Assembly (NCBI GenBank): GCA_023974075.1
Contig: CM043798.1
Coordinates: forward strand, 4,225,397-4,289,396
DNA length: 64,000 nucleotides
Source: Chaenocephalus aceratus
Taxonomy: Eukaryota; Chordata; Actinopteri; Perciformes; Channichthyidae
Reading direction: 5' to 3'
The translations under genes and the position numbers were made by a program. Of the stretch, positions 22,972-57,800 are shown piece after piece. Numbering within the stretch: the stretch's first letter is position 1; every line of letters starts with the position of its first letter. The notes beneath the pieces were generated by a model, which saw only the letters and a list, made by a program, of their open reading frames with translations, was not told the DNA's origin and searched no databases.

Positions 22972-25900
22972 ATGCAGGTTCAATGCGCTGTGCCGGGCTG
23001 TCCTGGGGGGCAATCCGACCCCCAGCCCCTCTTCAGGTTCCCTTGTGACCCAGAAAGGTAACTATTGCTAATGTTGCTAAAGCAAACGGGGAGCTCTCAA
23101 GCTACCCACAACAACGTGTTACTTTGTACGTCAAAAAGAGAACGGCATTATACAACGAGGGTAACTTTGCCGAGTGTCGAGGCATATTTCAGCAAGATGT
23201 CCTGCCTGTGTTTCGCTCTGTAGTGCATTCTTTATTAAACCCATACAATATCAAGTTACCTCAACTTGCAAAACCAATTCAGAAGGTTGACAGTTGCACG
23301 TGGCGTTGCTTTTTGCAAACATGAGACACCTGACATAATGATTCCTTTTGGAGGATGTGAACATGTTATGCAAACGCCGATTTACAAAATACAACACATA
23401 CCAAAGTATACAATACTACAGTTGTGGTAAATGATATCTGTAGACGACATACTTAGTTTATTTGTCATGTAAGGGCATGTCTACAACCTTTTGTTATAGC
23501 AGAAGAGGCCCAGGTGGGATTGATAACAGAGTGTTCCATCAGGAGATCTTCTTCATGGTCGTTTTATTATGCATCATACATTATCATTCATTAATACAGT
23601 ACACAGGAGGTTTGGCTCATGTTAGCCTCCCATATTAATCTACAAAATAAATAAATGTCACTAGTTATAGAATTGTTATATCCATGATATGCTTTTGTTG
23701 TTTTATGTTTTGTTTAGCTTTATAATCTTAGTCATTGTTACTTGTTTTTAGTAAAATAAAGCATGCCTTGGCTGATTGATGTATAACTGAAACCAAAATT
23801 GTATGGACAATTAATAGTATCTTTGGATGTATGTATCCCCTCCGTTCAGATCCAAGAAGTGGGTTGAAAAGTGTCAGAGGCAAGATCTCAGCGACAAATC
23901 AGCAGAGCAGTTGTTTGAGTGCTACAGACTGTGTGGGAAACATTTTGAAGCATCCTTGGTTGAAAGTGTAAGTTGTGTTTACAAGATGTGCACGAGTTTT
24001 GGATCAAATTGCCCGGCCTTCAATTAAAATGTCAAATAATGGCTTTGTCCTGCCCTGTATATTGTTTCACGACAACCTCAATCAATACAGAATAAAATGT
24101 AGTTATTTTATAGGTTACAGGAATAACAGTTAGTTAATATGACTTTGCAATATGCCGATAATGTGATATTAGACTATATCGTGTTTGATTGTAGATATCA
24201 TAAAATAGCATAAAGGTTAATATTTTTCTGGTTTTGAAGGCTGAAATACAATAATGATGTTAATGTCAAACTTTTAATATTTGTCATGACCCAATAAGTC
24301 ATTATATACGCATTGCTCATAATCATTTATCAACAAATCTTATTGTGTTAGTATTTATCAAAGCAAATCAAAGGCCATTTTCAAAAAGAAAATGTTCAAA
24401 AAGAGGTAACCACAAAGCGATATTTAACTGAAAATACTAGGGAAATGTTTACTCAGAATTTTTCTTCCACACTTGCCCCTGCTAACATCTCAGTAAATGA
24501 GCTAGTAGATCATTTTAATTCAAAAATTAAAAATGTTATAGATGCCATTGCTCCAACTAAGGTAAAGGAAGTGTCTGGCAAGAACATATCTCCATGGAGA
24601 AAGGCCATGACCGTGAAAACAGAAAAAAGAGAATGTCGAAAAGCTGAACGCACGTGGCGAAAAACAAATCTCCAGGTTCACTTTGAAATCTATAAAGAGA
24701 GACTTGGCCTTTATAATTTGGAATTGAAAAACGCACGACAATCGTTCTTCTCTGACATCATTACCAAAAACAAAAACAACGCACGTGCCTTGTTTGCTAC
24801 CATCAACTGTCAAAGATGTTTTGCCTTGCATGGCCTCAGATCTACTTCATATAGTAAACAAATCTCTTCACTCAGGTATTTTTCCACAGGCCCTGAAAAC
24901 TGCAGTCATTAAACCGCTCTTAAAAAAGAATAATCTAGATGCTTCAATAACGAACAATTACAGGCCCATATCAAACCTGCCATTTCTAGGTAAAATCATT
25001 GAAAATGTTGTTTTTCAACAGTTGAGTAATTTCTTGCATTTAAATAACTGTTTTGATGTGTTCCAGTCAGGCTTTCGTCCAAACCACAGCACTGAGACTG
25101 CTCTTGTAAAGGTCTTTAATGACATCCACTTAAACACAGACAGTGGCAGAACTTCAGTGTTAGTATTATTAGATCTCAGTGCTGCGTTTGACACTGTTGA
25201 CCACAACATATTACTAGACCGACTGGAAAACTGGGTGGGACTTTCGGAATCAGTTCTAAATTGGTTTCAATCCTACTTAAAGGACAGAAACAACTTTGTT
25301 TCTATCGGTAAATACACATCTGAGTTGACAAATATGGCATGTGGGGTTCCTCAAGGCTCCATCTTGGGGCCTCTTCTCTTTAACGTCTACATGCTACCAC
25401 TGGCTCAGATAATGAAGAACAACAAAATAAGTTACCATAGCTATGCGGATGACACACAAATGTACGTAACAATTTCACCAGGAGACTATGCTCCAATTCA
25501 AACACTGAGTAAGTGCATTGAACAAATCAATGACTGGATGTGTCAGAACTTTCTCCAATTAAACAAAGATAAAACTGAGGTAATGGTGTTTGAAGCCAAG
25601 GCAGAACGTAGTTAGCGCTGAGCTTCAGTCTGCAGTGTGCAAAACAACAGATAAAGCCAGAAATCTAGGTGTAGTCATGGACTCTGACCTGAGTTTCAAC
25701 AGTCACATTAAAACAGTTACTAAATCAGCCTACTATCACCTAAAGAATATATCTAGGATTAAAAGACTAATGTCACAGCAGGATTTGGAAAAACTTGTCC
25801 ATGCCTTTATCTTCAGTAGACTCGACTACTGTAATGGTGTCTTCACAGGTCTCACTAAAAAATCTATTAGAAAGCTGCAGCTGATTCAGAACGCCGCTGC

Positions 25901-28815
25901 TCGAGTCGAGTCCTCACTGACACTAAGAAAGTGGATCACATCACTCCTGTTCTGAAGTCTTTACACTGGCTTCCTGTGTGTCAAAGAATATATTTCAAAA
26001 TACTGCTGCTGGTTTATAAAGCACTGAATGGTTTAGGCCCAAAATACATTTCTGACCTCCTGCTAAATGATGAACCATCCAGGTCTCTCAGGTCTTCAGG
26101 GACTGGTCAGCTTTCTGTCCCCAGAGTCAGAACTAAACATGGAGAAGCAGCGTTCAGTTATTATGCTCCAAATATCTGGAACAAACTCCCAGAAACCTGC
26201 AGGTCCGCTGCAACTCTTACTACTTTTAAATCCAGACTGAAGACTTTTATTTTTGTCGCTGCTCTTAATTGAATTATTCATATCTTAAACGGCACTGTAA
26301 CTTTTATCCATGTATTTTTTCTTTTAATGTTTATTTTATTAGCTTTTCTTTTTAATGACTGATTTTAAATGCCATTTTCTTAATGTCTTTCATTTTTTGT
26401 AAAGCACTTTGAATTGCCTTGTGTTGAAAGGTGCTATATAAATAAACTTGCCTTGCCTTTACAATAAAAAAAAGCCCCTACAATATTGTTGCAATATCAA
26501 TCTTAAAAGAATATTTTGATGTTTTATATTCTCAAAAGATCACATTCCTAGTTAGTCCATTAGTCCTATTTGTATGTTCAGTCTAAATATGGTTTGTATA
26601 ATGGACTTCTCTGCCTTGACTCTGTTTACAGGACGCTCAGGGTACAGTGTTGAAGGATGGTGCCATACCAACTATCTTTGAAGGACAGAGCAAACCTCAA
26701 AATGGACAGGGGAAGCGCAGTAATGCAATGGTGGGTAGAATACATCTTAATTTATCAATGGGAGATAATCATTTGTATAAGTAGATTATCATTTTTTTAA
26801 ATCACGTTTTAATTTGCCTTTTATTATTGTAGACCAAGGATGATGAAACAGACAGTAAGGGGAGAAAAAGTAAGTCGAAATATCAACACAAACACACATG
26901 TATTACTTGCAATGAAACAAATGACTCCCACATTAGACACATAGTGAATGATTGACTCATTTTATCTTGCCTGTTTTTTTATATTCTTTTTTTAGAACTC
27001 AAGAAGTCGCAAGCAGAGACAGCTAAAAAAGATGTCCAGACTCCCCCAGAAGAAGAGGAACACAAAGAGTATCTTAAGTCCTTATTTAAAGTTCTTGTGC
27101 TATTGGGAGAGCAAAGCATTCCTCCGACAGGGCCCGGCGATAATAAACAGGATGGCCTTGGGTCAAGTAACTTTCAAGCATTGTTAGAATATAGCATGAA
27201 CTGTGGAGATGAGGTCCTTAAGAAGAGGTACGACGCCAATACAGAGAGCTGCTCCTCAGCTCAGCTCAGTCCGCTGGTTGAGGTTTGTGAGAAATACATC
27301 CGCAGTAAGCTTGTGGAGGAAGTTCAACAAAATGGCTTTTTCTCCTTACTTACTGATGACTTGGTGAAGATCTCAGGAGAATGGTTCCTCCCCGTCTTTC
27401 TCCGTTTTGTGGACCAGTCTAACTGCCAGCAGGAGAGGTTTGTTGGATTTTTGTCCTTCGAAGGACACGGAGAGGCCTTAGCAGAGAAACTTCTCTCTGA
27501 AATGACAGACAATTGGGGTTTGGATATGGAGCAGTGTAGAGGTCAAGCCCACTCCTGCTCTGGGACACATTTAGGTAAACTAAAAGCATTTTCTGCCAAA
27601 TTGTTAGAAAGGTATCCAATGGCAATGCTTACACCCAGATCTACTCGTACATTGAACCTGGTACTGGCAAATGGAATGGCTTTGTCAGGGGTTCAGCTTG
27701 TTTTGTCGACCTTGAAGAAGATTGAGTCATTCTTTAGTGAGTCCACTCTACTGCAGTTGGAGTTGGAGCATGCCATTTCGATTTTCTACCCGGACAAAGA
27801 AGAGAGAGCCAAGGAGCTGAAGGAGATCTGTGGAACCAGCTGGACCAGACGACATGATGCGTTTGAGGTGGCCTTGGAAATCCTAGAGGCATTGTTACTC
27901 TGTGTGGACAGTGTTCATGACAACGAGGACATGAGGTGGAACGATCAAGTCACACACAACGCTTTAGAGATCTCAAAAGCACTAGTTGATTTTGAATTCG
28001 TAATGGCTCTGGTTGTGATGAAAAACACTCTGACACTGACACAAGCTTTCGGGAGGAACCTGCAAGGCAAAGCATCAGATATCCACTTTGCCGCAGCGAG
28101 TTTAAAAGCTGTATTGCACTCCCTGAAGGAAGTGTCTGACAATATTGATGTTTATCACGAGTTCTGGAACGACGAGGCCACTAACCTAGCCACTGCGATG
28201 GAGATCCCAATTAAGGTTCCTCGGTCTTACTTGAGAAAGCACCAGTCAGAATCTGGAGCTGTTCGGCCGGAGAGTTACTACAAGGAGCACCTGTCTGTTC
28301 CCATAGTGGAGCATGTCATCAGAGAAATTGATACTCTCTTCTGTGAGGACCACCTGAAGGCTATGAGATGTCTGTCCCTGGTCCCTGCCGTCATAGAGCA
28401 GCACAAGTCTACTGAACCTGAGGAAGAGAGTCTGCAAGTGTTTAAGAACTCCATCCCTAATGTAGGAACCCTCTCCGCCGAGATGCACTGTTGGTGGGTT
28501 AAATGGAGCAAAAGGGGCAAAGGCGAGACTTTTCCCACCAATCTCCAGGAAACGCTGCAGCTGGCCGATGTGAAGTTCTTCCCGAACATGCTCGCAGTTC
28601 TGAGGCTGATCGCCATCATCCCTACCTTGACTCTGGAGGACAGCTGTGATGTGGCGTACAAGCGCTTCCAGATGTACATGGAGAACACGCCTGACCAATT
28701 CAAATCACAAAGTGTCGCTCTTTTGAACATAAACTGTGATGTAGCATATGATCTGGACTCAATGGTTGAGGTCTATATGAAGACATACCCTGACAGGGAG
28801 GATGTGTCTCTGTGA
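22972..28815 (+). CDS. thap12: THAP12-type protein: THAP zinc finger plus hAT-transposase-derived body (5 coding exons)
   Basis: Mammalian THAP12 (DAP4, 52-kDa repressor of the inhibitor of PKR) is a domesticated hAT-transposase-like protein linked to the P58IPK/PKR stress pathway. Exons: 22972-23057, 23850-23967, 26632-26730, 26833-26869, 26996-28815. All phases agree and give 719 residues, against about 760 in human. THAP domain: C5 and C10, W33, C57 and H60, then AIPTIF (79-84), completing the C2CH signature. The last exon carries the whole hAT-like body: [68 protein letters not shown] and a C-terminal [12 protein letters not shown] dimerisation-like segment. The classic hAT acidic catalytic set is not conserved, so transposase activity is unlikely. 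Intron 2 carries an L2 LINE. It lies head to tail with the modular paralogue at 31206. Confidence 0.93.
24390..26460 (+). mobile_element. L2-type LINE, 5'-truncated and frame-broken, in intron 2 of the THAP12-type gene
   Basis: Same orientation as the host gene. Reverse transcriptase motifs are clear: [43 protein letters not shown] and YADDTQMYV (frame 24785-25615). The RT C-terminal part lies in another frame (to 25955), and a final block ending KSRLKTFIF lies in a third (to 26272). The upstream piece at 24445-24830 is joined by an internal deletion. There is no endonuclease region. The 3' end has the typical L2 tail ('aaagcactttgaattgcctt', then 'gtgctatataaataaa') and a short CCTTG repeat. 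It is a dead copy. Confidence 0.9.
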
Positions 28816-31205: not shown

Positions 31206-34200
31206 ATGACTGACTGCTGCGCCGCAGCCAACTGTGATTACCAGCGAGGGGATTCCGAAAACTCCCCTCCACTTTTCAGCTTTCCTTTGGATCTGGATCG
31301 GTAAGAGTTGTGCTTATTTCATTGGGATGTGGGTGAAAAACGAGCCACTGAGCATGCAAAATGAATGTGTTAGCTAGCCACTGTTAGCATTGGCGTTAGC
31401 CTAACATCATGGCTAACAGTGACACAACTCTGTCGAAAATGGCGCAGACTAGCGTTACTCTAGAAAGAAAAGTCCGTGTGAAATACACTCCGTTCTTTCA
31501 TTCAGTCTCGGTCAACCGACGCTAACGTTGGATATTAGCTGATATTCACTTCATATATGTGTTTGGTTAGGTCGCAAACAAAGATAAACCATAGTTTAAA
31601 ACTTTTTGTGCTGTAATTTAAATCGCCATCGGTACACGACACCTACCGTCTCCATAGTGCGGTAACATTAGCAACACTGACAATTCAGCTCAATTCAAAT
31701 ACAACGCATTGAAAGTGCTAATTTACGCTATTGCTTTCTAAACTGCACACAGTCTATAGTCATTTTGCAACACACCTCATTGTAAACAATATCAGGTGAA
31801 ACTTTATTTACGTACTTTTATCAGGTGAATAAACAGCAGTCTAGCGCCCCCTTCCTTTCTATCCTGTTTTTTTTTGTTTAACTTTGAGATTTAAATTGTC
31901 TAGTACAAATGAATGTGTTTATGTTGCATAAAATGTAATAAATGGAAGGACTATGATTCGGCATGACAGCTGCAGATTAGCATTTTGACAGTATCGGAGC
32001 AACGGGTGTGAACCTTTTTTTACATCCATTCCTGCAAGAGTTAGTATTTGTTCCCCTCCTTTGCTCTGTTGGCTCTTTTTTAATCTGGCATCCACTTTGT
32101 ATTGTGTTACATATAGTTAAGTTACCTTATTTGCTTTAATCCACCCTTTTCTGAGCATGCTTCCATACAAATAATTTGAGAGAGATTACTTTTAAATTAA
32201 ACTCAGCGTTGAAAATGCTAGTGTATTGTACAACATTTAACGAAAGAACTGCATCAGTGGGGATATATTACTTGCATATGTGACAGCTTTACATTTCATA
32301 TTTGAATATGTTGTAAAATGCTTGGGCAACAACATGACTTGTTCATTCCAATAAAGTTATTTGAATTGAGAATAGTCCAATTATTAGAATGAATGCAAAG
32401 GACTTGTGTGGAATGAAGAAGACGTTTGAGCAGTCACTCCCAACTCAGTTCTTCCCTTTATTTTGCAACACAGGCAGAGTTGTTGCAAGTGCAGCTGACC
32501 AAAGCAGAATCCCTGGGTGTATCAGATCGGTTGTGTACGCATGTTATGTTTGACTATAAATGTTTGGAAATAGTCATTAAAGAAGGGTTTTGAGCAGCAG
32601 TGGTTTGGACCAAGGGCATCATATAGTGTCTGTTTTCAATCAACCTCATTGTTTTTGCTCAGTAAGCATATTTTATGCTCTGAAATAAGACAATTATGGC
32701 TTTTTAATGTATTATAAGTCTACTGCTTTGGGTGAATTTCTCTTGCCTTTTAATTTGTCATAACCATACATCTATAGTTACATACGATAGATGTTTCATA
32801 ACCAAACAATCTAATAAGTGGCCTGTAAGTCCCGTTGTCTTTGGGTTAGAAAGAATATTAGAGTTAAGATTTAGTCATGTAAAGCTTCACCAATGTTAAA
32901 CTGGTGAATCACGATGAACAGTTGACCTTAAAGCAAACACTTTGACCAACCTTCGAGCTTGGTCCCATTGAGATCATAGATCTCTTTTTCAAGGGAGTCT
33001 GTTTGTCACGTCATCATTTCAGATATTTAGAGTAGAGATGTAATGCATGTTGAATTAGTTTGAAATGATTAAGTCTGTGGTTGTGACACATGAAAGTTAT
33101 GCACGTTCGCTCTGTATTTTTCAGATGCAAACAATGGTTGCACAACTGTCATCGCCCAGACCTGGTATCAGAGCCTCCGGAGCAGCTGAACAGGCAGTAC
33201 AAACTGTGTGCAAAGCACTTTGAGCCCGCTGTCATCTCTTATCAGGTAAGAAGAAGATACATTGTCCTTTTTGTGTTCATCATAATAATAATAATATGTA
33301 TTTATATCTTAAAGTTGTTGTGAAAATGCCACCACTAGTGCTTATTTTAGTAAGCAAACAGGACAGGCTCACTCTTGATACACACACAACCTAGGAACTA
33401 AGTTATTCCTAAATAGAGTTAGCTGTAATACACTTTAGTTAAAAGAAGAACATCTAAAAAAGACATCCCTGATGCTGGAGCTTGGGTTTTATTCCGTCCC
33501 AGCAGGCGTACAGGTCACTGTGCAAAACCCTGGTTCAGCTATTTTGATAAAGATGGTGTCTTTGTTTCCTTGGGTGATAAACATACCACATTAGGGCTGA
33601 ACGATATACCGTGTCATGGCGATAACCGCGGTATGCGCGGTATTCACACCGCAGGGACGTGCGGTTTTATTCATTTTTAAAAAAAATGCTAACGCACTTT
33701 AGCACAGAATTCAAAATAAAGATACCCTTATTACTTATCGAAACTGCACATACAATATATCCGATTTAAAGCTGAGACTCCACAGATTATTTAAGTATAG
33801 TATCTAAGCGATCCGATCTCGCAACAGGGGAAGCAAACACAGACATCACAACACGTACCTTTTACAGAGCTTTAACGGGAGATCGTCTCACCGTAGCTGT
33901 CAATCTGATTAAAAGACGTGTTCAATGGCATTAAAACGCGGCTGAACCGTTTGATCCATAGGTTGATAATGTTCTGTGGCTTTGAAGCAATTGTTCATAA
34001 TCCATAATTCCATTTTTATGTAAAAATCGGAGCACAAAAGTTAGCTGCTAATGGTAGCCACCAGAGTGTATGCAGCTTCCGGTTTTGGCTACGCGTCACT
34101 CTCACTCCTTATTTGGTAATGTGTGTATTAGACTGCCACATAGACAAGACCGGAAGCAGCAGCCACTCTGGTGGCTACCATTAGCAGCTAACTTTTGCTC

Positions 34201-37200
34201 TGTGATATTTACATAAAAATGGAATTATGGATTATAAATTAAATCATTTTTAAGGTTAAAAAACTATGGATTAACCGATTCACCCGCGTTTTTTCTTTCT
34301 CGTTTTAATGCCATTGAACACGTCTTTTGATCAGATTGACAGCTACGGTGAGACGATCTCCCCTGGAAGCTACGTAAAGGTACGTGTTGTGATGTCTATG
34401 TTTGCTTCCCCTGTCGCGAGTCCGGATCACTCAGTGATGATACTATATACCTAAATAATCTGTGGAACCTCAGCTTTAAACAGATATATTGTAAATGCAG
34501 CTACGATAAGTAATAAGGGTACTTTTATCTTGAGTTCTGTGCCAAAGTGCGTTCGCATTTTTCGCTCAGGGGTCATTTAGATGCTTCTTATGAGACTTGT
34601 GTTTTGTTTTGGTAAAAATGGTTTGTATCGTCAGTTAGCTGAGATTATTACCGTTAATCTGGTATAACACATTAATAGCTTCTTAAATATTATGATCCCC
34701 TGGGACACAGTCGTGAAAAAAAAAAAGTAAAGTACCCGCCGGGACTTTGGGGTTTAACAGGTTAAAAAAAACGCAATATATACCGCAGGGGGGGGGGGGG
34801 GGATCGCGATGTCAGTTTTTTTCAATACCGTGCAGCCCTATACCACATTGTTTATTAGCAACACCTTGGAAATCTAATGCACTTTAATACAACAGCTAAG
34901 ACATATCTCCTATCTTTGGGAAGCTTGTGATGTTGAACCAGTGTTTTCTAATGTGTCTTTTGTTCTTACACAAGGGGGAAATAATAATAATAATACATTA
35001 TAATATATACCGGTAATGGGTATTATTTTAGGGATTTTCAATTATCTATTCAACTTCCTTTCAAACAGTATAAAAACGATTTGGTTAGTTAGTTTGTTAA
35101 TGTAAACATGTTGTAGTCATTTTCTTATTTGATACCCAGTGAGGCCCAGGCCCAATGTATCTTTAGTTATCTTCCTCATATGAATCTCCCCATTTCACTT
35201 AGAATATTGGGATAAAAGTGTGATCTTCTGCTTTTTGTTTACCAGAGCGCCTCCAGTTGTGTCTTAAGGGACGATGCTGTTCCAACAATATTTGACTCAC
35301 CTGTGAATAATCAATCAACCTGCAACAGGAAACGAGCAAGAGATCCTGTAAGTGTTTTTGTTCAATCTTTCAAAAATCTTTTACACATTTTAGACACTAA
35401 GAGACTAAATATTAAAATCGCTAATTTGCTTCCTTCTAGTCTGAAGAGGAAACTGGCTATGTGAAGAAATCAAAAGGTACAGTAACTTGTTATTCAAGAG
35501 TTTTGGTTTATGTATGTTAGAATGAAACAGACCCTGTTGTGAATATGTATTCACTTATATGGTTAGCATTTAAAATCACCTCAGCTTTTTATATATATAT
35601 TTTTCCATCAGAAAACACGGCCGCAACAGAGGTGTCTGAGGAGAGGCTAGACGATCCTGAAGACAACACTGAATTGCATGAACTGCAAACGGAGAACCAA
35701 ACACCCGAGGATGTAGCTAGCTCTAAAGCAAAAGAGACTCTAAAAGTCTATTTCAAAGAAATCCTGGCACTGACTGGATTCAGCATAAATGGTTCAAACA
35801 TCACCAATGAGCCAATCAGCGGTTCCAGAGGGCAGCAGGCTCTCAATCGTATTTGTGTGGAGAAAATTGAAAAGAAAGAAATTCTCCAGTTCAGTGAAGA
35901 CCTCATGCGGGAGGAGATCCAGAACAGCCTCCGACAGGCACGATTCTTTTCCATCCTGCTTCAGGATGTGACAAGTATAGAGGGGAAGGATCAGATCCCA
36001 GTGTTCGTCAGGTCCGTCACAGTAGATGGGTTCCCGCAAAAGCACCTCATTGGGTTCTTACCATGTGACATGGATTCAGATAACCTGTTTTACGTGCTTC
36101 TCGCAGAGTTGCGAAACAAGTGGGGGCTGAGGATGGAGCACTGCAGAGGACTGTCCTATCTGGTGACGGGCAACATGTGTCAGAAAATGCGAGACCTGAC
36201 CTCAAAGATTCTGCAGGAGTTCCCACAAGTAGTTCTGTCACCAAGTGACCCATATGCCTTCAACATATGGATCATTCGCTGCATGCCTGTTCCCTCGATT
36301 CAAAATGTTGCCAACACTGTAGAGGAGGTGGCCTCGTTACTCAGGAGAACCCCAGAGCTGTGGAAAAGATTGGAGGGAAAGATCCAGATGACATATGGGC
36401 ATATAAAAGGGGAAGTAGACCGGATCAAGGCAGCTGTCAGTGAGAATTGGGAATATGGCACGGATGCCTTCCAGACCATGTTGGACATCCTGGAGCCATT
36501 CCTGAACTGCATCAACGAGATGATTTCAAAGGTAGATGAAGATACTGCTGAACAGATGGCCAAGCTCAAACCCGTTTTGAAGAATTTCAATTTTATCATC
36601 ACACTTATTGCTCTCAAGAACACCCTCTGTTGTGTGAGCATACTCAACTCCAGTCTCAGGGGAATAATAAGCATCAGCAGTACGTTGCAGTACACCATTT
36701 CCAATGCCTTAAAGCTGGTAAGCAAATACCAGCAGGAGCTTGCAATATTCCACAGGAAGTGGTTTTCCGATGCCGTTGGCAGAGCCAAGAAGCTTGGAGT
36801 GGAGGTCACCAAACCAGAGGTGGACCAAGGAAACGCCACTGAGACGCCACTGGAGGACTTTTACAGGGAGACCCTAAGCCGGCCCATCTTGCAGTATCTT
36901 GTTGCAGAAGTGAAGAGAGTGTTTAGCACAGAGATGGTGAGGATTCTCCGATGGCTTTCGTTAGTCCCGTCTTACATGGCTGACCACAATTTCAGCATTC
37001 GCAGGGATAAAGTAGCAGACGCCAACTTGAACAACCTTGCAAGGCCTGACACATTCTACGAAGAGCTCGGTTGTTGGGAAGTGAAGTGGAAGCATGCGAG
37101 CAAGCGCAGGATCTTACCAACCACAGTGTTCGCTACGCTCAAGATTCCAGACATCGGCTTCTACCCGAATGTGCAGAGCCTGCTGCGCGTGCTGGGCACG

Positions 37201-40200
37201 GTTCCATGTGTGAATGCAGAGGCAGATGTGTACGGGCAGTACCACATGGTTCTGGAGAGGTGTCACTCCTACCTCAAAGACACACCGGAAGACCAAAGAA
37301 AATGCAGCATGGCATATGTCTACGTGAACCAAGATGTGCATTTCAATGTTGAACAAATCGTGGATTCATATGTCCAGAAGCACCCGGACATTCTGAAACT
37401 GCTGCAGACGGTTAGTGGATTTTGAAAAGCAGGAATTTTATTGCTCTAAAATAAATGTTCTACCTGAAATGACAATGTACTTTGTGTGTCTTGTTCCAGG
37501 ATGATGACACAAAGGAAAAGCAATCCAGAGGTGAGATGACTTTAAAGTTACGTTAACCGTGCAACCATTCTATCACATAATGTAAACATTTCAGGGAAGG
37601 TTATTTTAAGCTTAAAACAGGACAATATATTTTAAAATGTCTTGGAAGTAAATGCTTTTCGTATTGAAGCATTTAGCTGTAAGACCTATTTACCTCTCAT
37701 TTCAGGTGCGTCCCATGGGAACCACGCTGAAAAGGACACGGAAGAAGAGTTACAGTTCATAAACCTAGAGATGGATGCTGAAAGGCTTGTGGAGCTGAAG
37801 TGTGCAGAGACTGATAGAGATGCTCTTAAATCTGCTTTGCAGACTGCAGTGACGTCTGCATACAGCAGTCACAGCAGGCCACAGGGCGATGCTTCTGCTC
37901 AGGAAGGAGAGGTCGAGTATGTGACCAAGTCTGAAATGAAAGAAGTTCTCACTGTGTGCGAGAAGGCTGTCAGGGAGGGAATCCTCTTGGAAGTGGGCAC
38001 TTCATTATTTTCCTTGTTCATCGATCGCGTTGTGAAGTTTGGAGAGAAAGACTTCCTTCCACTGTTCCTGAGGTTCGTGGACAGCTTTGATGTGATGCGA
38101 TTAGAGCTGATGGGATTCCTCGAGGCAGATCTTGATTGTGATGACATGGGACAGCGTCTTCTGGAAATAGTAACCGTTGAGTGGAATCTTGATTTGAATA
38201 ACTGCAGAGGCCAGGCATACCTAGGCTCTGGGGATGTTTCTTACAAGCTGAAAGCATTTGCCTGCAAAGTCCAGGAGACTCATCCTCTTGCTATAAGCAC
38301 GCACTGCTCTTGCTACTCTTTCAACACATGGTGGTCAAAATCCATCCCAGTGCCTGCTATCAAGAGAGCCCTGGATACCTTTGAAGAGGTGTTGATGTTT
38401 TTTGGAAGCAGTGCTACTCTCCAGAAACAGCTGGACCATGTGATCGCCTTTGGTCTCAGAGAGAGCTATGAGAAGGTCCAAGAGTTACAGGGGAAGTTCT
38501 GTGCTCTCTGGCAGGAGAACCACGATTCTTATGAGGTGTTTGTGCAGATGCTAGAGCCGATGGTCGAATGTCTGGAGAAAATCAAAAATAACCCCCAGAG
38601 ATGGAAAGCCTTTGTGTCCGACCAGGCTGGGGCCCTCCTCCGCAAAGTGATGGAATTTGATTTCATCATTGCCATGGTGGTCTTGAAGAATGCCTCCTCC
38701 TTCACCAAAGAGCTGAGTGCAGGTCTCCAGAAGGACCACTTCAGCGCCGCATCCCAACTTTGCCAAATCGCTGGTATCGTGGCCACGCTGAACCGAGTAA
38801 AAACCAACATGAAGGTGTTTCATCAGAACTGGTTTGACGAGGCCTGTGCAATGGCACAGAGTCTCAGAGTGCAGATCGAAGTGCCTGATGCTTGCCAAAA
38901 CGCAATGCCAAGAGACGGGATGATGAAGCCAGTTGGTTTTTACAAAGATGGCTTGAGTGTGCCCCTGGTGGATAACCTTATCAATGCAGTGAAGGATCAT
39001 TTTTCAGAGGACCACAAAGAAGCTCTTAACTTCCTCTCCCTGGTTCCGTGCTCGGTCACCGTGAGTTACATGTTTGAGAGCTTGAAGTCAAAGCCCCCTC
39101 TCTACAGCCGAGATCTCCCTGATGCTGACAACTTCTTCACAGAGCTCTGCTGCTGGAGGGTAACATGGAAGACCAAAGTTGCATCTGTGACCGTACCAGG
39201 CTCAATATTCCACACATTGCGTCTCCCACTCATGCAGTACTTTGGCAACATCAACGCCCTGCTGAGGATCATGTCGGTGCTTCCCAGCACAGCACTGGAG
39301 GACTGCGGTGTCATAATGCGCCACAAGAGGTTCCAAGAGTACCTGAGAAATACAAACCCCAAGGTCAGGTCCCAGTGCCTGGCTATGCTGCAGGTGGGCA
39401 CGGACTTCAGCAGAGACCTGGACCGCATGGTGACCCAGTGTCTGAAGGTTACTCCGCAAGCCTTGGAGGGCATTTGTCTGGTACATACCTTTTGTTATTT
39501 CATAAAAATGGCAGCAAGTATTTATTCGTTGTTTTTTTTATCCCCAATTTCTATATTGTTTGAACATCAGACTAATGTTTATTTTTCTTGGTATGTATTC
39601 ACAGGACAAGGAATCCAAGAATCTCATCAGGAACTCCGAAAATAACATGGAAGGTACGGCTATTTAGAGATCCTACTCTTATTGCATGCATTAACGACAA
39701 CATAGATATACCATGTCCATACTAAGTTATAGAAAGTAACTTGTAGTAATAACCATTTCCTGTTTTCTTTTCTGCTTTATTTTGAAATATCTAGTTGACT
39801 GTGTCAAGGAGGAAACTGAAGAGCCTATAATTGAGCAATCTCTTGACAAGATTGAGGACCACGAGATGAAAACCGCAGATGAGAACGGCCACTCAGGAGA
39901 TAATCGTCAAAGTTTGGCGACAGTATTCAAACTGGCCACACTACTGGGGAAAAAGAATGTCAGTCTCTCTGACCTCTCAGAAGAGGACGGAGAGCATTTC
40001 ATCCAGGAGCTCAGCCTGTGCCACTGGTTTGGAAACGAGAGCAAATGCACACCATCGATAGGGGATGATGAAATGGTGAACCTCCTCATAAATGGAATCA
40101 GAGATGTCATACTCAAGGAAATACAGGAATCGCCGTTCTTCTCACTTATCACAGACAAACCTGTGAGAATTGCTGACAAGACGCACCTGCCTGTTTTTAT

Positions 40201-43200
40201 CCGGTATGTGGGAGAATCTGCTCCCAAAGTGGAGTTGATGGGTTTCTTACCATTTGATGAAAACCGCCATGTTGAGACACAAGCGAATAACCTCGCAAAG
40301 ATTCTCACTGAAGACTGGGGCGTGCCCATGTCTCAATGTCGGGGACAAGCATTCATGCACCTGGGCTCCGGTTATCAAAGCCTGAAGAAAATGTCTTTGG
40401 ATTTCCTCCAGAGCTATCCGCTCTCTGTTGTGACACCCAGCGAGTCATGCGGCCTTGCCCATTGGCTGGCAGGGAGTGTGCCTTGCCATTCAGTAGCAAG
40501 AATGCTGGATATCACAGAAGACCTGCTGCTGTTCTTCGATGAGTCTCCTCTACTGGAGGAACAGCTGGCGCAGGCTGTTGACGGCCTTTTGAATATGCCA
40601 AGAGAGGCTCTCGATGAGTTCCCAGAAACATGCTGCTCGAGGTGGAAAAAGAGAGAGGACTTCTTTGACCTGCTTGCTGACACATTGGAGGGCGTCCTCA
40701 CCTGCCTCGATGCCGTAAGCTGTAGTGCCACGGGAGCAAAGTCCATGCATGCTCAAGTGCTCTCCACTGCCCTGAGGAACATGGACTTCATCGTCACCCT
40801 TGTGATTTTAAAGAATGCTTGTGCTCCTCTTCGTAACTGTAGCACTGTCTTCCGCTGTGGAAACCCTGCTGACATTCTCTGTGAAGTGGAGAAAATCCCC
40901 TCGATCATTGACACTCTTGACAAAATGTTAGTAAATGTGAGCACTCTGCACTCCACTTGGTTTGAGCAGGCATTCCAGCTAGCAATCAGGGTAGCTCCTG
41001 AACACGTGTACTTCTCCGAGGAAGCCAACAGCTATGAATCTCCTGAGATCTATTACAGGGAGAATCTGAGCGTCCCTCTCCTCGGGAGTCTCATCCACGA
41101 CATGAAGTACAGCTTCTCTGACAGCCACTTAAAGGCCCTGTCGGTCCTGTCGTTACTGCCCTCCTGCAACCCCCAGACCATTCCCCCCGAGGCCACAGAC
41201 AAGCCGTTCAGCCTCTACCTGGCAGATGTTTCTGACCCCGAGGCAGCTGAGCAGGAAATCAACGCATGGGCCGCCGTCTGGAGTGAGAAGTACCAGGATG
41301 CTGCTCCGCCATCGTCCATCGCTGAAACACTGGTGCATCCTGAGTCAAAGAGCCACCCAACGGTGACCTCACTGCTAAGGCTAGTAGCTGTGCTGCCGAG
41401 TGTCAGTATGGAGTGGGACCTGATGAAGACCACTTTGAATTCCATGCGGGATCTGTTAAAAAGCACTGTATGCAAAGGCAGCAGAGTGGATCATGTGGTG
41501 CTGCTCTCTCACTGCACCACTCTGCAGAGACTGCCCGAGGTCATTGAGAAGTGCATTGAGGTCGACCCAGAGAGCAGTCCATGTCTCTCCCAGGTACCTT
41601 TCTAATGGTTTTAAGATTGTTATGTGTTGATTCATCATGTTGTTTAAGTTAACATAGTTAATAGCATTCTTTTCAGCCATTCTAATAAGACTACATATTT
41701 TGTAGGTGATGGGAACTTTGCAAAGACTGAAGTTGGACAATGGTAAGTCCATTTATGGCGACTTGATTATCAAGAATTACAATGGATTTGATTGTAATCA
41801 TAAGATGATCACTAATAATTAACTTTGTGGCATTAACATTATTTTTATTTTAAAATCAGGAGGCATTAAAGCGGCAGCACCAACAGACGCCTCCATTCTA
41901 CTGCCGGAGCCTGCTGATGGGGAGGTGACATCGGCTGATGGGCACATCGTATTGGAGGTCGCACAAGGACCAAGAGAAGCAGTGTCTTTCTACGACCCAC
42001 AAACGCGGGAACAAATCCTGAAGGAACTCTGGGACTCGCAGTTCTTTACATTTATTACTGAGCAGGCTGTTGACATCGATGGTGAGATCTATGTCCCGTT
42101 GTGCATCAGGTACTTAAACAAAGAAGACATCCAGTGTGAGGAAACGCTAGCTTTCATCCCTTTCGGTGAAGACCCAGTTGTTGTTGCAGATTCGATTGAG
42201 GCGGCCCTTTCAGAGAAGTGGGGTCTCAACATGGAGTACTGTAGAGGCCAGGCCTTGCTGAGTGTTGGGGAAGTCGGAGCTCAAATGAGGGCTGTGAGTT
42301 TAGCTATAGCTAAGAAATACCCCAGGCTGTCAGAACGGTCAGCTCGGCTTTGTCTCTTAATGTATGGCTGGCTAGATCGTCTCCCCCTGAGGAAGCAGCA
42401 GACGGGGCAGTTCTCATAAGTAAAATATTGTACTGGCTCACTGAGGATGTGGAACGCCAGAACAAACTGGAAGACGTGATCCTTCACGTGTTCCAGCAGG
42501 ATGAGGTAAAGGGCAACGAGCTGAGGGACAAACTCATCAAGAATTGGGACAAGAGCCATGTGATGCACGAGGTGATGGTAGATATCTTAGAAGCTGTCAT
42601 GCTCTGTCTGAATGAGCTGAAAGGAGAGGGAAGTGCTTCAGACCAGCAGCAAGCCTCACAGTTTTTCGATGCGGTCAGAAACTTTGAGTTCATCCTATCG
42701 ACAGTGGTGCAGAAGAACATCTTGAGAGTAACGACAAAGCTTAGTCAGTCTCTTCAGGGCAAACCTTTAGATATGTTACATGCTGTGAATAATTTGTCTG
42801 ATCTGAAAGCGTCCCTCGGTCAACTGAAGAGTGATATTGCCACCCATCACAAGGCCTGGTTTGAGGAAGCCACCGCGCTGGCTTCTAAACTCCATGTAGC
42901 GATGTTGCATTCAGTGCTTCTCGAGCCTTTGAGTGAGTTTTACAAAGAATCAATAAGCATGAAGCTTGTCGAGCACTCGGTTGCCGAAATGGACGACCTC
43001 TTCACGGAAAAGGTATTGGATACCTTGAAGTGTCTGGAGATTGTGCCTTACGCAATGTCCAAAGTAGAAACCAACATTCTGAGTGGTCTTGTGTTCCGCC
43101 TGTACAAGGAGGACTTGCCAGATCAAGTCTCTCTTCAGTCTGAGATGAAGTTGTGGAGGGAGAAATGGTTGGATCCCCTGGCAGGCTACCTCCCAACCAC

Positions 43201-43381
43201 TGTGCTCGATACGCTCAAGACGTCACAGATTAGAGGTTTCAGTAACATTGAAACTCTCCTCAGACTCCAGGTCATTCTGCCGTTTTCAAGGAAGGAGAGC
43301 AACTTCAGGCAGGGAAAGAGAAGCTTACCGGAGTTCATACTGCAGGAGAAGCGCTCTCTCACTGAGCTACACCCTCTGTAA
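31206..43381 (+). CDS. THAP12-like giant protein: one THAP finger plus four tandem hAT-derived modules (11 coding exons)
   Basis: Exons: 31206-31300, 33125-33245, 35246-35347, 35440-35476, 35612-37410 (module 1), 37500-37530, 37706-39480 (module 2), 39605-39653, 39795-41593 (module 3), 41706-41742, 41860-43381 (module 4). THAP domain: C5 and C10, W36, C60 and H63, AVPTIF (83-88). Linker exons 35440, 37500, 39605 and 41706 are all phase 0 to 1. Module exons 1-3 are phase 1 to 0. All 10 junctions agree in phase and every intron has GT-AG ends. The predicted length is about 2,450 residues, more than three times an ordinary THAP12. The role is unknown. The single finger suggests one DNA-binding head on an extended scaffold of transposase-like folds. 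Module 4 has a one-base frame break near 42350 and a shortened end. Separate genes are less likely, because modules 2-4 have no THAP exon and no start in context. Confidence 0.85.
33595..34846. mobile_element. Fold-back element with ~400-bp inverted arms in intron 2 of the modular gene
   Basis: The arms 33691-34084 and 34149-34553 are near-complementary. Matches include TTAGCTGCTAATGGTAGCCA facing TGGCTACCATTAGCAGCTAA, and 'gagatcgtctcaccgtagct' facing its complement. The loop is about 65 bases. The outer ends share a 'tagggctg(a/c)acg(a/g)tat' terminal sequence (33594, and the complement at 34846). A G tract lies at 34789-34801. Non-coding; the superfamily was not determined. Confidence 0.8.
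35612..37410 (+). other. Module 1 exon of the THAP12-like modular protein
   Basis: 1,799 nt, phase 1 to 0, about 600 residues (119-718). THAP12-body landmarks in order: ETLKVYFKEILALTGFS, FFSILLQDVTSIEGKDQIPVF, KWGLRMEHCRGLSY, AFNIWIIRCMPVPS, AFQTMLDILEPFLNCIN, NFIITLIALKNTLC, FYRETLSRPILQYL, ELGCWEVKWKH and GFYPNVQSLLRVLGTVP. The hAT 'TDD' position reads LQD and 'CRGQA' reads CRGLS, so a catalytic role is unlikely. It ends at a gttagt donor. Without splicing, translation would stop five codons on. Confidence 0.88.
37706..39480 (+). other. Module 2 exon of the THAP12-like modular protein
   Basis: 1,775 nt, phase 1 to 0, about 592 residues. Landmarks: LFSLFIDRVVKFGEKDFLPLF, EWNLDLNNCRGQAYLGSG, SFNTWWSKSIPVPA, FVQMLEPMVECLEKI, FIIAMVVLKNASSF, FYKDGLSVPLVDNLI, ELCCWRVTWKTK and YFGNINALLRIMSVLPS. 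It keeps CRGQAY and has a single acidic residue at the 'TDD' site (IDR). It is preceded by a 31-nt acidic/basic linker exon (37500-37530, DDDTKEKQSR) and ends at the gtacat donor. Confidence 0.88.
39795..41593 (+). other. Module 3 exon of the THAP12-like modular protein
   Basis: 1,799 nt, exactly the length of module 1, phase 1 to 0. Landmarks: FFSLITDKPVRIADKTHLPVF, DWGVPMSQCRGQAFMHLGSG, LAHWLAGSVPCHS, FFDLLADTLEGVLTCLD, FIVTLVILKNACA, YYRENLSVPLLGSLI, EINAWAAVWSEKY and HPTVTSLLRLVAVLPS. It keeps TD and CRGQAF. The preceding linker exon is 49 nt (39605-39653). The donor is CAG|gtacct. Confidence 0.88.
41860..43381 (+). other. Module 4 exon of the THAP12-like modular protein, frame-disrupted and short
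   Basis: 1,522 nt including the stop. It lacks the first ~90 residues seen in the other modules. It has FFTFITEQAVDIDGEIYVPL, KWGLNMEYCRGQALLSVG, then loses frame near 42350. The homology resumes one frame away: LNVWLARSS, VMVDILEAVMLCLNEL, FILSTVVQKN, FYKESISMKLVEHS, EMKLWREKWLDPL and FSNIETLLRLQVILP. It ends early at 43381, about 35 residues short of where modules 1-3 end. Either the last module is decaying or one base is missing from this assembly. Confidence 0.82.
42340..42360 (+). other. Frame disruption in module 4
   Basis: Up to codon 42348 the module reads in the frame set by the exon's acceptor, which then runs to a stop at 42419. Homology continues in the frame starting at 42350. 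The spacing from the YP doublet to the N-x-W motif fits the other modules if one base is missing here. There is no homopolymer longer than three bases at the site, which makes a simple homopolymer sequencing slip less obvious. Confidence 0.75.
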
Positions 43382-45295: not shown

Positions 45296-45676
45296 CTGTG
45301 GCCCCAGCAGTAGCAGCAGGGCCCGACTGCGGCCCGCAGCAGCAGCAGGGCCCGTCTGCGGCCCCCAGCAGCAGCAGCAGCAGCAGCAGGGCCCGACTGC
45401 GGCCCCCAGCAGCAGCATCAGGGCCCGTCTGCGGCCCCCAGCAGCAGCAGCAGCAGGACCCGGCTGCGGCCCCCAGCAGCAGCAATCAGGGCCCGTCTGC
45501 GGCCCCCAGCAGCAGCAGCAGGGCCCGTCTGCGGCCCCCAGCAGCAGCAGCATCAGGACCCGTCTGCGGCCCCCAGCAGCAGCAGCAGCAGGACCCTGGC
45601 TGCGGCCCGCCCCCAGCAGCAGCAGGGGCCTGGCTGCGGCCCGGCCCCCAGCAGCAGCAGGGCCTGGCTGCGGCCA
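45296..45676 (+). repeat. CAG-rich GC minisatellite
   Basis: About 11-12 variant units, each a run of 3-8 CAG triplets followed by a 'ggcccgtctgcggccccc' type spacer. Unit length varies with the number of CAGs, roughly 27-45 bp. It is open on both strands in several frames, which is expected for a triplet-based repeat and is not evidence of a gene. Confidence 0.85.
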
Positions 45677-54819: not shown

Positions 54820-57800
54820 ATGAGGAGCAGCTCTCATGTCCTGCCTCTCGGTGTGCTCACGGCTCTGCTGCTGTCTCAGGTCTGCTCGGGCATCAAATGG
54901 CTGTAAGTATTCCGAGGAGTGGCGCCGTCTCATTCGGCTTTTACATTCAAACAATCTCCAAACAGATGACGTAAGGTAGATACGCGATATATGCTCTTTT
55001 CTGCATGTTTTATGGAAGGGAGGGCCCGTGGCAGCTTTAAAATGGGCCCCAACATTCCTCAGGTTGCTCCTGATGGAGGGAGAGGATAGCGCTGGACATG
55101 TGTCTGAGAAAGGGGACATTAGATTGACAGTTCCTCACATTATGAAGGGAAACCTTTTTGTTTTATTAACTCTATTCAGTAAAAGGAGCAGCATGTCGGA
55201 TCACTTGTACCCCTGCTGTAGAGTAATAATGAGATGAGTGGAATAAGAGGGCGACGACAGACAGCCCAGTGTGTGTAGTCCTAGTTAGGCCTCAATCTGT
55301 GTAAAAATAGTGCGCTGCCGAGCCTACGTGTTGACACAAATGTTGATTTCTCCACGCTGTCTTTATGGTTAAAGTAAACAATAATTTCACCATATTTCTG
55401 GAAAGTCCGTCAAGTTACCAAGTTGCTATTTTTGTGTTGAAGTTATGTTATTGTTTGGTATTCCTGTAAACCCTTTCGTTGTCTGCGTGTTCTGCTGCGT
55501 GTCTCTTCATCAGAGTTTCTTTGTCTGAGCAGCTGTGAAAACACAATATCCACGGCCTCTTGTCAGAGGGAGCTGTGATGCTCCCGGTGCGAAGGCTTAA
55601 GCAGATGTACCCATGAGAGCAGGGATGGCATGTGCTAAACCTAAGCTCTTACAGTCCTGATCATGCACGGCGGTGCAACGCAAAACAGATGCGGCTGTAA
55701 ACACCTGTGAGTGCCGGGTTACCCCCGGTCCACTGGAGTCACAGCTTATCATTGGGCACAGAGTGGCGGCCCCTTGGCCCCTAATGCAAAACAGGCCAAG
55801 GTGCAGGCGGCGCTGCCTGGTTCTCACAAACAGTTCAGAAATGAGAGATCAGAGCGGAGCTGCGGTCTCTCTGTTAAGTTAATACTTTATCAGTTTTAAA
55901 TGTTTAACTCCAATGTGTGCACCCTTTAATAGTCTGTAACCATGATTCGTGTCAAGCTGAGGCCACCGAGGGCCGTGCTTACTGTGGTGGACAAAGCAAA
56001 TATAGAAGGATCACAGTTTCTCATCAGACTCTGATCTGATTTTCTGGTTTTTATATTTTGGGAATATCCATAGACATCTTCTGTGCTTCAGCAAGAAGAG
56101 AAGCCCTGCGCCAAGAACGTGTCACTTATACTTTCTTTTGGGATTTACCCCGTGATAAGATGGTTCTCTGCCAAAATATTTCCCCTCCTGAAATATTATC
56201 TGTTTCAAGTGTTTGATCCGATGTTTCTCATAGGCTTGAAATGTGTGTGAAATTGCTATCACACACATTTAACTGAAACGTACAGCTTCCCACAATCGTG
56301 GTTATTCCATCGTCATGAAACAAAAGAAGTCAGCTCCCCGTCATGTATTGTGCAGACTGACCCCAGCTCCTCTTTGTGCCCAGGTCGATATCACACGCCC
56401 CGGCGTCTCTCCACATCAACCAGACCCAGCACTGTAAGCTGCTGCCGGGCATGGTGTCCTCCCAGGCCCAGCTGTGTCGCAGCAACCTGGAGCTCATGCA
56501 GACCATCGTCACCGCCGCACGGGAGGTCAAGAAGACGTGCCAGAAGACGTTTTCTGACATGCGCTGGAACTGCTCCTCCATTGACATCCCAAACGATGTC
56601 CAGAAGTATCGGCCAGACCTCGAACGAGGTATGACCATTCACCGTTTGGAATGACAGCGCAGACATTGTTGTTTCCAGAGAAGTTACCCACAGGACTGAA
56701 TAACCGATCTGAGGTCATGAAGCATTGACTTCTGTTTACAGTAACTTGTGAAATGACCCTCGGCCTCGAGTGGTGTCTGCGCTCAGACGCTGAGCTAGAT
56801 GTATCTGTATGCTAATGCTTGTTAATACATGCTTTTTTAATGAAGAATGATGTCCTTCGCAAAGAGGATCTCAGGTTTAAGATGACATGTGGCCTCGTCT
56901 TTCAACTTTTAGACTGCCGGATGAATTATTCCATTTCCTGGCGGGCCTTTACGAGAGACATGGACTCGACTGTTATTTGAGAAGACATACAACACGTGTA
57001 TATTCTGCATGATATAAAATCGGCTTATGTCTGTAATCTGAAGCATAATCCGACTGCACGCCTGGTTAAAAAAAGGACTTTAAGTCAGCCGGAGACAGTT
57101 TCTGGGTTAGGGTTAGTGGGGGGGGGGGGGGGGGGGGGGGGTGTGCAGCGCTCTCAGAAGGGACATGGCTGCCATTTGCCAAATGAAAAGTCTGAACAGG
57201 AAATGGCTCATCTCTGTGTAGCGGGGGCTTTGATCTAACCAGCCCGTCTCGGTCACACGTGACTTCCCCCTTACCTCCAGTTGCTCCTCGGCCGTTAACA
57301 TGTGCTTTCTGCGCACGCACATCACCTCCAGTCCACCAGGCTCAGGCTGGTTACAGCGGACAGTGATGGACTGCGTGTGATCGTTACAATTTGTTTTGTT
57401 TTTCACCGAGACAGTAGAACACTAAGAAATAAGGAAATAGCAGATCAATTCATTTCAAAGAAGTGGTTTAACAATTGTCTATAAATGTTTTTATTAGCTT
57501 GGTTTGAATGGTAACCAACATCTGTCAAAGCTGACCATGATACACTTAAAGTATTTTAACAATCGATACATTGTTAAAAGAAATGTTGTAAAGCAATAAC
57601 GACAAATATTAATAGCTCAGTAAATGATAAGAATGTGCTCTTTCTTTTTGGTACCTAACTAAATAACTGCTGGTGACCTCTGACTGTAATGTGTGTGTGA
57701 GCATTCAACAAAGACAGACCTATGAGTAACTGCATGTCACTTTGCAGGATGGGGCTGACGGGGCGTACAGATATCAAATGTGTGTTTCTGTCCTGCCCCC

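Follow-up and report, generated by a model that had tools for sequence, protein, structure and literature searches.

The window, a 64,000-nucleotide stretch of contig CM043798.1 from the icefish Chaenocephalus aceratus, carries two neighbouring forward-strand genes, here called gene A and gene B. Gene A (22972–28815) has an open spliced frame of 719 aa, with exons at 22972–23057, 23850–23967, 26632–26730, 26833–26869 and 26996–28815, and matches the Pfam THAP (E = 7.6e-17) and DUF4371 (E = 2.8e-08; 34.1 bits against a cut-off of 32.1) profiles. Its layout of a THAP finger, a 37-nt linker mini-exon and one large DUF4371 body exon follows what we take to be the plan of THAP12. A Wnt gene lies downstream, in agreement with the human THAP12–WNT11 neighbourhood; tetrapod THAP12 was absent from the matches listed in three homologue searches.

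Spliced at GT-AG sites, the interval 31206–43381 forms one gene of 11 forward-strand exons, gene B, which follows the same THAP12-type plan with the linker-plus-body unit present four times and with bodies homologous to that of gene A. The THAP zinc-finger head is encoded by exons 1 (31206–31300) and 2 (33125–33245), the Pfam domain extending slightly into exon 3 (35246–35347), which holds the end of the THAP region and a basic linker. Four linker and body exon pairs follow, with identical phases across pairs. Module 1 (M1) comprises a 37-nt linker mini-exon (35440–35476), equal in size and phase to that of gene A at 26833–26869, and a body exon at 35612–37410 (1,799 nt, 599 aa; 25.7% identity to the gene A body, E = 8e-68). 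Module 2 (M2) has a 31-nt linker (37500–37530) and a body at 37706–39480 (1,775 nt, 591 aa; 31.7% identity, E = 7e-93), and module 3 (M3) a 49-nt linker (39605–39653) and a body at 39795–41593 (1,799 nt, 599 aa; 27.1% identity, E = 3e-61). Module 4 (M4) has a 37-nt linker (41706–41742) and a body exon at 41860–43381 (1,522 nt) with a shorter C terminus and the gene B stop codon; its two pieces, on either side of a frameshift described below, are each 29% identical to gene A (E = 3e-18 and 2e-38, BLASTP with gene A as query). By BLASTP, the gene B body nearest to gene A is M2.

The four large exons have exactly the lengths given in the original prediction, which had proposed that a two-exon cassette of linker and body was duplicated within the gene. 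The repeated exon pair, its constant phases and the short introns of the array bear this out: the linker exons (37, 31, 49 and 37 nt) each have a length of 1 mod 3, and the internal body exons, three in number, one of 2 mod 3, so that those cassettes run from phase 0 to phase 0, and the introns within the array span just 89–175 nt, leaving no room for THAP exons between modules. Gene B is best read as a tandem paralogue of a THAP12-type gene in which the linker and body pair was copied to four inside the gene.

The predicted product, one chain of about 2,450 residues with a single head, agrees end to end, with 14 differences, with a single 2,455-residue protein of a close icefish relative (P0001), except for a frameshift in M4 that had previously been overlooked. 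The shift lies at 42318–42324 on the forward strand (near 42320–42323), at a short C run where P0001 is intact, and the M4 exon is consequently not open in a single frame. The presence of the shift in the window would fit a recent, species-level loss, with M4 genuinely disrupted in this species and a protein of only 2,134 residues; we regard this as doubtful, since another frame is open past the shift to the normal stop at 43381 and this remainder carries only 4 changes in 352 residues relative to P0001, while length differences in C runs are a common sequencing error.

The same arrangement is widespread among fish. We searched for homologues and considered the best 120 of 163 matches, the best 120 of 165 and all 32 of a third search; every listed match with a legible organism name belongs, as we read the names, to a ray-finned fish. 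The layout M1-M2-M3-M4 was found in 130 of 137 homologues among the matches listed in two of the searches, from eels to percomorphs. Of the seven exceptions, six (P0006, P0048, P0112, P0119, P0120 and P0121) have a split or cut module, and P0108 (Eucyclogobius, 1,943 aa) is without M4, by model error or real loss. Additionally, all 18 array sequences of the 'lgn' type, on contigs of 7,662–9,973 nt, encode the four modules without introns, which indicates that one spliced mRNA carries the modules in those fish, all of them other than the species of the window; seven of these 18 transcript-like sequences begin late in or past the THAP finger. It is very improbable, then, that a cluster of separate single-body genes has been mistaken for one gene: the donors after modules 1–3 (GTTAGT, GTACAT and GTACCT) do differ from the common GTAAGT, but no THAP exons lie between modules, no stop precedes the donor sites, and both the intronless 7.7–10 kb contigs and the layout shared by the listed homologues speak for a single gene. 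Two candidates for a different arrangement were discarded: P0151 and P0152, considered as a separate two-body gene, are C-terminal parts of the array, and the apparent fifth module of P0139 (a Carassius gibelio model) is 52% identical to the body of gene A and is therefore read as a B-to-A fusion model.

The gene B bodies are only 24–34% identical to one another. Body-against-body BLASTP gave E values from 2e-95 (gene A against M2) to 7e-13 (the first piece of M4 against M2), and in HMM-HMM comparison all ten pairs among gene A and M1–M4 aligned at a probability of 100. The N-terminal THAP zinc finger exceeded the Pfam cut-off in P0001 (E = 9.9e-15, residues 5–88, where gene B of the window differs at one residue), in gene A and in the spotted gar homologue (E = 9.9e-17). 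The suggested THAP12/hAT homology of the bodies is directly supported for gene A and for M2 of P0001, which match DUF4371 above the cut-off (M2: E = 3e-11, 44.1 bits in P0001; E = 6.5e-05, 23.4 bits and below the cut-off in the window), and the other modules are tied in through these two, M1 falling below the cut-off (E = 0.019) and M3 and M4 giving no match in the Pfam profile search. The hAT C-terminal dimerisation domain (PF05699) gave no match up to E = 1 in the gene A body, M1, M2, M3 or the second piece of M4, a search in which the HMMER filters may hide distant members. Sequence searches of the PDB returned a single chance match (E = 0.93), and none with a profile query. Six of eight previously listed landmark motifs were coded; five of the six, with patterns loosened to accommodate all five bodies, kept the same order throughout and did so in none of 5,000 shuffles of each body. 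The shared order of landmarks stands, and some are looser than first described (FFSILLQ and ALKN in M1, TVTSLLR in M3, FFTFITE and FYKESISMK in M4).

In a tree of modules, each module class, M1 included, formed one clade with support 100/100, and gar branched first within M1, M2 and M3 (supports 91/84, 94/96 and 98/99). The spotted gar has at least M1–M3, its gene model ending in the M4 linker exon, so that at least three of the four modules predate the gar–teleost split, more than 300 million years ago. These clades, together with the low identity between bodies, uphold the view that the expansion is old and the copies diverged. Between icefish and the eel Conger, M1 is 71%, M2 74%, M3 57% and M4 53% identical, far more than the bodies of one chain are to each other, which points to constraint. 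As for the order of duplication, the tree tests allowed gene A to join any of the modules (AU p = 0.17–0.45).

We inspected the alignment columns that we take to be catalytic. None of the 52 rows has the second aspartate: gene A carries S in its column, and all 51 module rows carry L, M, I or A. The first aspartate is present in gene A and in all rows of M2 (13/13) and M3 (13/13); in M1 its column holds Q (12 rows) or E (one row), with an adjacent D in 12 of 13, and in M4 it holds E in 11 of 12. The catalytic-column glutamate is conserved in 45 of 51 module rows. No row carries the complete DDE triad of an active hAT transposase and, with the second aspartate missing throughout, the four gene B bodies are, as judged from these residues, catalytically dead as transposases. 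Although DUF4371 marks the bodies as descendants of a hAT-type transposase, it is exceedingly unlikely, given this loss, the low identity between modules and the layout shared from eels to percomorphs, that the array consists of transposons active now or until recently, or that it arose in the assembly.

The bodies evolve as two pairs, M1 with M2 and M3 with M4, a feature absent from the original prediction. Across 140 branches and 83 proteins, partial correlations of branch lengths were 0.60 for M1-M2 and 0.56 for M3-M4, and 0.13–0.24 for the other combinations; none of 40 simulated sets reached this contrast, which was spotted in the data first and tested afterwards. Internal branches alone (57) gave 0.55 for both pairs, and 15 otophysan-plus-Chanos proteins gave 0.68 (M1-M2) and 0.71 (M3-M4). 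An 18-protein non-percomorph set agrees only partly, with M1-M2 at just 0.26, under M1-M4 at 0.40. Between half-modules the signal is weak: residual correlations lie close to zero for members of one pair and even for the two parts of one module (−0.24 to 0.09), though the 16 that link one pair with the other are all negative. The rate of the THAP finger tracks both halves about equally, and M4 has a total branch length of 16.0 against 8.2–10.5 for the other modules. A long inserted spacer occurs only before M4, with 706–1,330 residues in 15 otophysan and 84–333 in 13 salmonid proteins, and is missing from all 91 proteins of ordinary length; the insert appeared low-complexity by eye in the otophysan proteins inspected. 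The otophysan proteins of 3.2–3.8 kaa, which looked as if they had five or six modules, resolved in the profile layout into four modules and the M3/M4 insert.

Taken together, we favour, with a probability of roughly 0.55, a single old functional gene encoding a THAP finger and four dead bodies arranged as two internal pairs, acting as a DNA-bound scaffold. The single-body relative THAP0/PRKRIR is reported to homodimerise through residues 1–488 (PMC6402169), and it is this, together with the paired body rates, that leads us to propose two internal body pairs, M1+M2 and M3+M4, in each chain. The THAP finger would place the protein at DNA, as reported for THAP12, and the bodies would serve as protein-binding and pairing domains, M1+M2 as a conserved pair beside the finger and M3+M4 as a faster pair on an extensible tether; such a monomer would bear the surfaces of two dimers and may have a transcriptional role. 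More tentatively, and at somewhat less than even odds, the protein may be a 'pre-dimerised' single-chain regulator whose one THAP finger carries four dead bodies folded as two internal pseudo-dimers, M1-M2 and M3-M4, and whose lineage predates the gar–teleost split. Two structure predictions came out poorly (mean pLDDT 56.5 and 53.8; pTM 0.42 and 0.34) and so demonstrate no contact between modules, and neither a fold search with the M2 model nor Foldseek with the P0145 model gave a match at E ≤ 0.001.

The rate data could also be explained by a protein of two functional halves that do not pair physically: THAP-M1-M2 would do the DNA-linked work, M3-M4 would form a separate, faster-evolving interaction arm, and the bodies would bind partners independently. 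The long, variable M3-M4 spacer of otophysans and salmonids and the faster evolution of M4 would suit such a division, but alone it leaves unexplained the M3-M4 coupling in the otophysan-plus-Chanos set, which persists even where as many as about 1,330 residues separate the two modules, and we consider this reading somewhat unlikely.

Like gene A, THAP12 (PRKRIR, p52rIPK, DAP4, THAP0) has one N-terminal THAP finger, which a linker joins to a hAT-derived body. Gene B differs in having four mutually diverged bodies instead of one and in its length of about 2,455 residues, against about 720–760. Compared with the Hermes hAT transposase (PDB 2bw3 and 6dww), the bodies of genes A and B are without the second catalytic aspartate, and the structural match is weak, given an rmsd of 12–13 and a low-confidence model. 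In the ZBED family, where we know of no tandem bodies, the finger is of the BED type, whereas that of gene B is a THAP finger; members such as ZBED6 are domesticated hAT transposases serving as transcription factors (PMC10027918; see also PMC2780926). Gene B itself corresponds to si:dkey-250d21.1, an uncharacterized teleost entry whose name many orthologues bear in databases. In the literature searched, a protein under the name of the zebrafish gene stands in a row of a mass-spectrometry table for larval eyes (PMC5595969), the gene is named in one sentence on altered transcripts (PMC8063052), and it appears nowhere else. The expectation that no such protein had been described fits the literature searched, which mostly excludes subscription papers and yielded no description of a tandem-body THAP protein, though databases already hold the gene under this name.

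Gene B thus encodes a conserved fish protein with repeated, diverged, domesticated transposase bodies in one chain, an architecture for which we found no description. If the proposed pairing is true, internal duplication would have converted a homodimer into a monomer with four surfaces that could from then on specialise. The rate pairing directly predicts which bodies touch. Lying side by side, genes A (one body) and B (four bodies) form a natural series for the role of dead transposase folds. According to a preprint (PMC13404843), THAP12 sits at promoters in the nucleus, activates complex I assembly genes and is linked to complex I assembly and a neurodevelopmental disease, so that a fish carrying genes A and B could serve to tell the effects of DNA targeting apart from those of the bodies.

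Splicing of the window at GT-AG sites gave gene B (31206–43381, forward strand) 11 exons. Two THAP exons and one linker exon precede four pairs, each made up of a linker mini-exon (37, 31, 49 and 37 nt for modules M1 to M4) and a large body exon (1,799, 1,775, 1,799 and 1,522 nt), exactly the four tandem modules behind one THAP finger that had been proposed. The same exon pair recurs throughout, with every cassette starting in phase 0 and the three internal ones also ending in it, in agreement with in-gene repetition of a two-exon cassette of linker and body; the array introns measure only 89–175 nt, leaving no space for lost THAP heads between modules. The neighbouring gene A (22972–28815) carries this plan once, with a 37-nt linker exon and one 1,820-nt body exon, and its 719-residue product matched both THAP and DUF4371 domains. 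The observation is real, and its interpretation correct in outline. Intron 2 of gene A holds a remnant of a LINE-type reverse transcriptase (24728–25615; RVT_1, E 8.7e-35), and intron 2 of gene B a foldback element (33682–34562) with nested inverted arms of 35–109 nt that are 81–92% complementary.

A search with the spliced protein retrieved a 2,455-residue homologue from the icefish Pseudochaenichthys georgianus (P0001), which shows 14 differences relative to the window, and further homologues throughout the teleosts, many of which carry the name ‘uncharacterized protein si:dkey-250d21.1’. Module profiles found the exact M1-M2-M3-M4 layout in 130 of the 137 listed homologues; in six others a module was split or cut, and the remaining one lacked M4. 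Sixteen additional proteins from a further search were mostly partial. Eighteen sequences encode all four modules without introns, and, since their contigs measure 7,662–9,973 nt against a genomic span of 12.2 kb for gene B, we infer that they are spliced transcripts. Together with the single chain of P0001, this supports, from other fish, the original prediction of one transcript and one protein. A larval-eye mass-spectrometry table in PMC5595969 lists a protein by the name of the zebrafish gene.

In this assembly, a frame shift in M4 at a C run near 42320–42323 ends the reading frame after 2,134 residues, with most of M4 lost. From there on, the other frame reads through to the normal stop codon and differs from P0001 at four of 352 residues, so the shift either arose recently or reflects a sequencing error.

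Seven of the 18 transcript-like sequences (P0025, P0054, P0056, P0059, P0086, P0088 and P0090) have a first methionine that falls either towards the end of the THAP finger or beyond it (e.g. MISHQ..., MHRSYKLC...), a hint of an isoform that lacks the finger and uses an alternative 5′ end. In two predicted Syngnathus X2 isoforms (P0147, P0148), M1, M3 and M4 are retained but M2 is mostly missing; compared with the sister isoform P0074, P0147 lacks 528 residues, from within the M2 exon to near the exon's end. The gene model P0139 (Carassius gibelio; residues ~1560–2164) couples an initial portion of gene B with a body 52% identical to that of gene A, perhaps reflecting adjacency of the two genes in carps too, read-through or a model error. 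P0153 (849 aa; longest source contig 4.7 kb) fuses an OTU protease domain to DUF4371.

Downstream of gene B lie a GC-rich minisatellite (45305–45675, unit ~32–35 bp) and a Wnt gene exon (57730–58188; PF00110, E 1.4e-27); as human THAP12 is located near WNT11, this neighbourhood may be conserved. Upstream, a CKAP2-like exon (16370–16711, reverse strand) matched CKAP2_C under the family cut-off (E 1.6e-05).

By BLASTP, M1, M2 and M3 are 25–28% identical to one another, a range that widens to 24–34% once both M4 pieces are included, and gene B bodies are 26–32% identical to that of gene A; HMM-HMM alignment gave a probability of 100 in all ten body pairs. The proposed hAT relationship had direct profile support for some of the bodies: the hAT-type DUF4371 profile matched gene A (E 3e-08) and M2 (over cut-off in P0001, under it in the window), matched M1 weakly, and had no match in M3 or M4, so that a hAT ancestry for M1, M3 and M4 rests on resemblance to gene A and M2.

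A tree built from gene A and the 51 module rows of 13 fish placed each module class in one fully supported clade that roughly follows the fish tree. Spotted gar (P0138), whose protein stops in the M4 linker exon, has M1, M2 and M3 and is the first branch within each of these three classes, so an array of at least three bodies predates the gar-teleost split. Module stems (1.0–1.5 changes per column) are several-fold longer than branches near that fork; with the low identities, this fits the old expansion and strong divergence that had been suggested.

The modules evolve as two pairs, M1+M2 and M3+M4, a pattern absent from the original prediction. Branch lengths were fitted per module on a single fixed tree with 140 branches for 83 fish proteins, and their partial correlations came to 0.60 for M1-M2 and 0.56 for M3-M4, against 0.24, 0.20, 0.13 and 0.17 across pairs, the lowest being that of the adjacent M2-M3. 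The pairing persisted by ranks, on short and on long branches, and on the 57 internal branches, a check that should be little affected by single gene-model errors. The within-minus-cross contrast, which was first spotted in the data and then tested, was 0.39, compared to −0.005 (sd 0.11, maximum 0.158) in 40 simulations with module-specific rates on a shared tree. Among 14 otophysan proteins plus Chanos the values were 0.68 (M1-M2) and 0.71 (M3-M4); among 18 non-percomorph proteins, M1-M2 reached only 0.26, M3-M4 0.48 and M1-M4 0.40. Between half-modules, residual correlations were weak: each of the 16 that span the two pairs was negative (−0.10 to −0.39), and those within a pair or module ranged from −0.24 to 0.09. 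M1 and M2 are also the best conserved (71% and 74% identity between icefish and Conger eel; 57 and 53% for the other two).

Between M3 and M4, 15 otophysan proteins carry an extra 706–1,330 residues and 13 salmonid proteins an extra 84–333, an expansion absent from all 91 ordinary-length proteins, and M4 accordingly looks like a tethered unit. In the printed proteins the spacer is low-complexity by eye, with short tandem repeats in a salmon and more degenerate ones in otophysans (P0101, P0127, P0128, P0129); its growth in the two groups was apparently independent.

At the columns taken as catalytic from known hAT motifs, the first aspartate is retained in gene A, M2 and M3, replaced by Q or E in M1 (with an adjacent D in most rows) and mostly by E in M4, and the glutamate is retained in most rows. 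The second aspartate is absent from every row (L, M, I or A in the modules, S in gene A), and the gene B bodies should, judging from these residues, be dead as transposases. The gene is already in databases as an uncharacterized protein, and a description of the four-body architecture of this THAP12-type domesticated transposase was not found in the literature searched.
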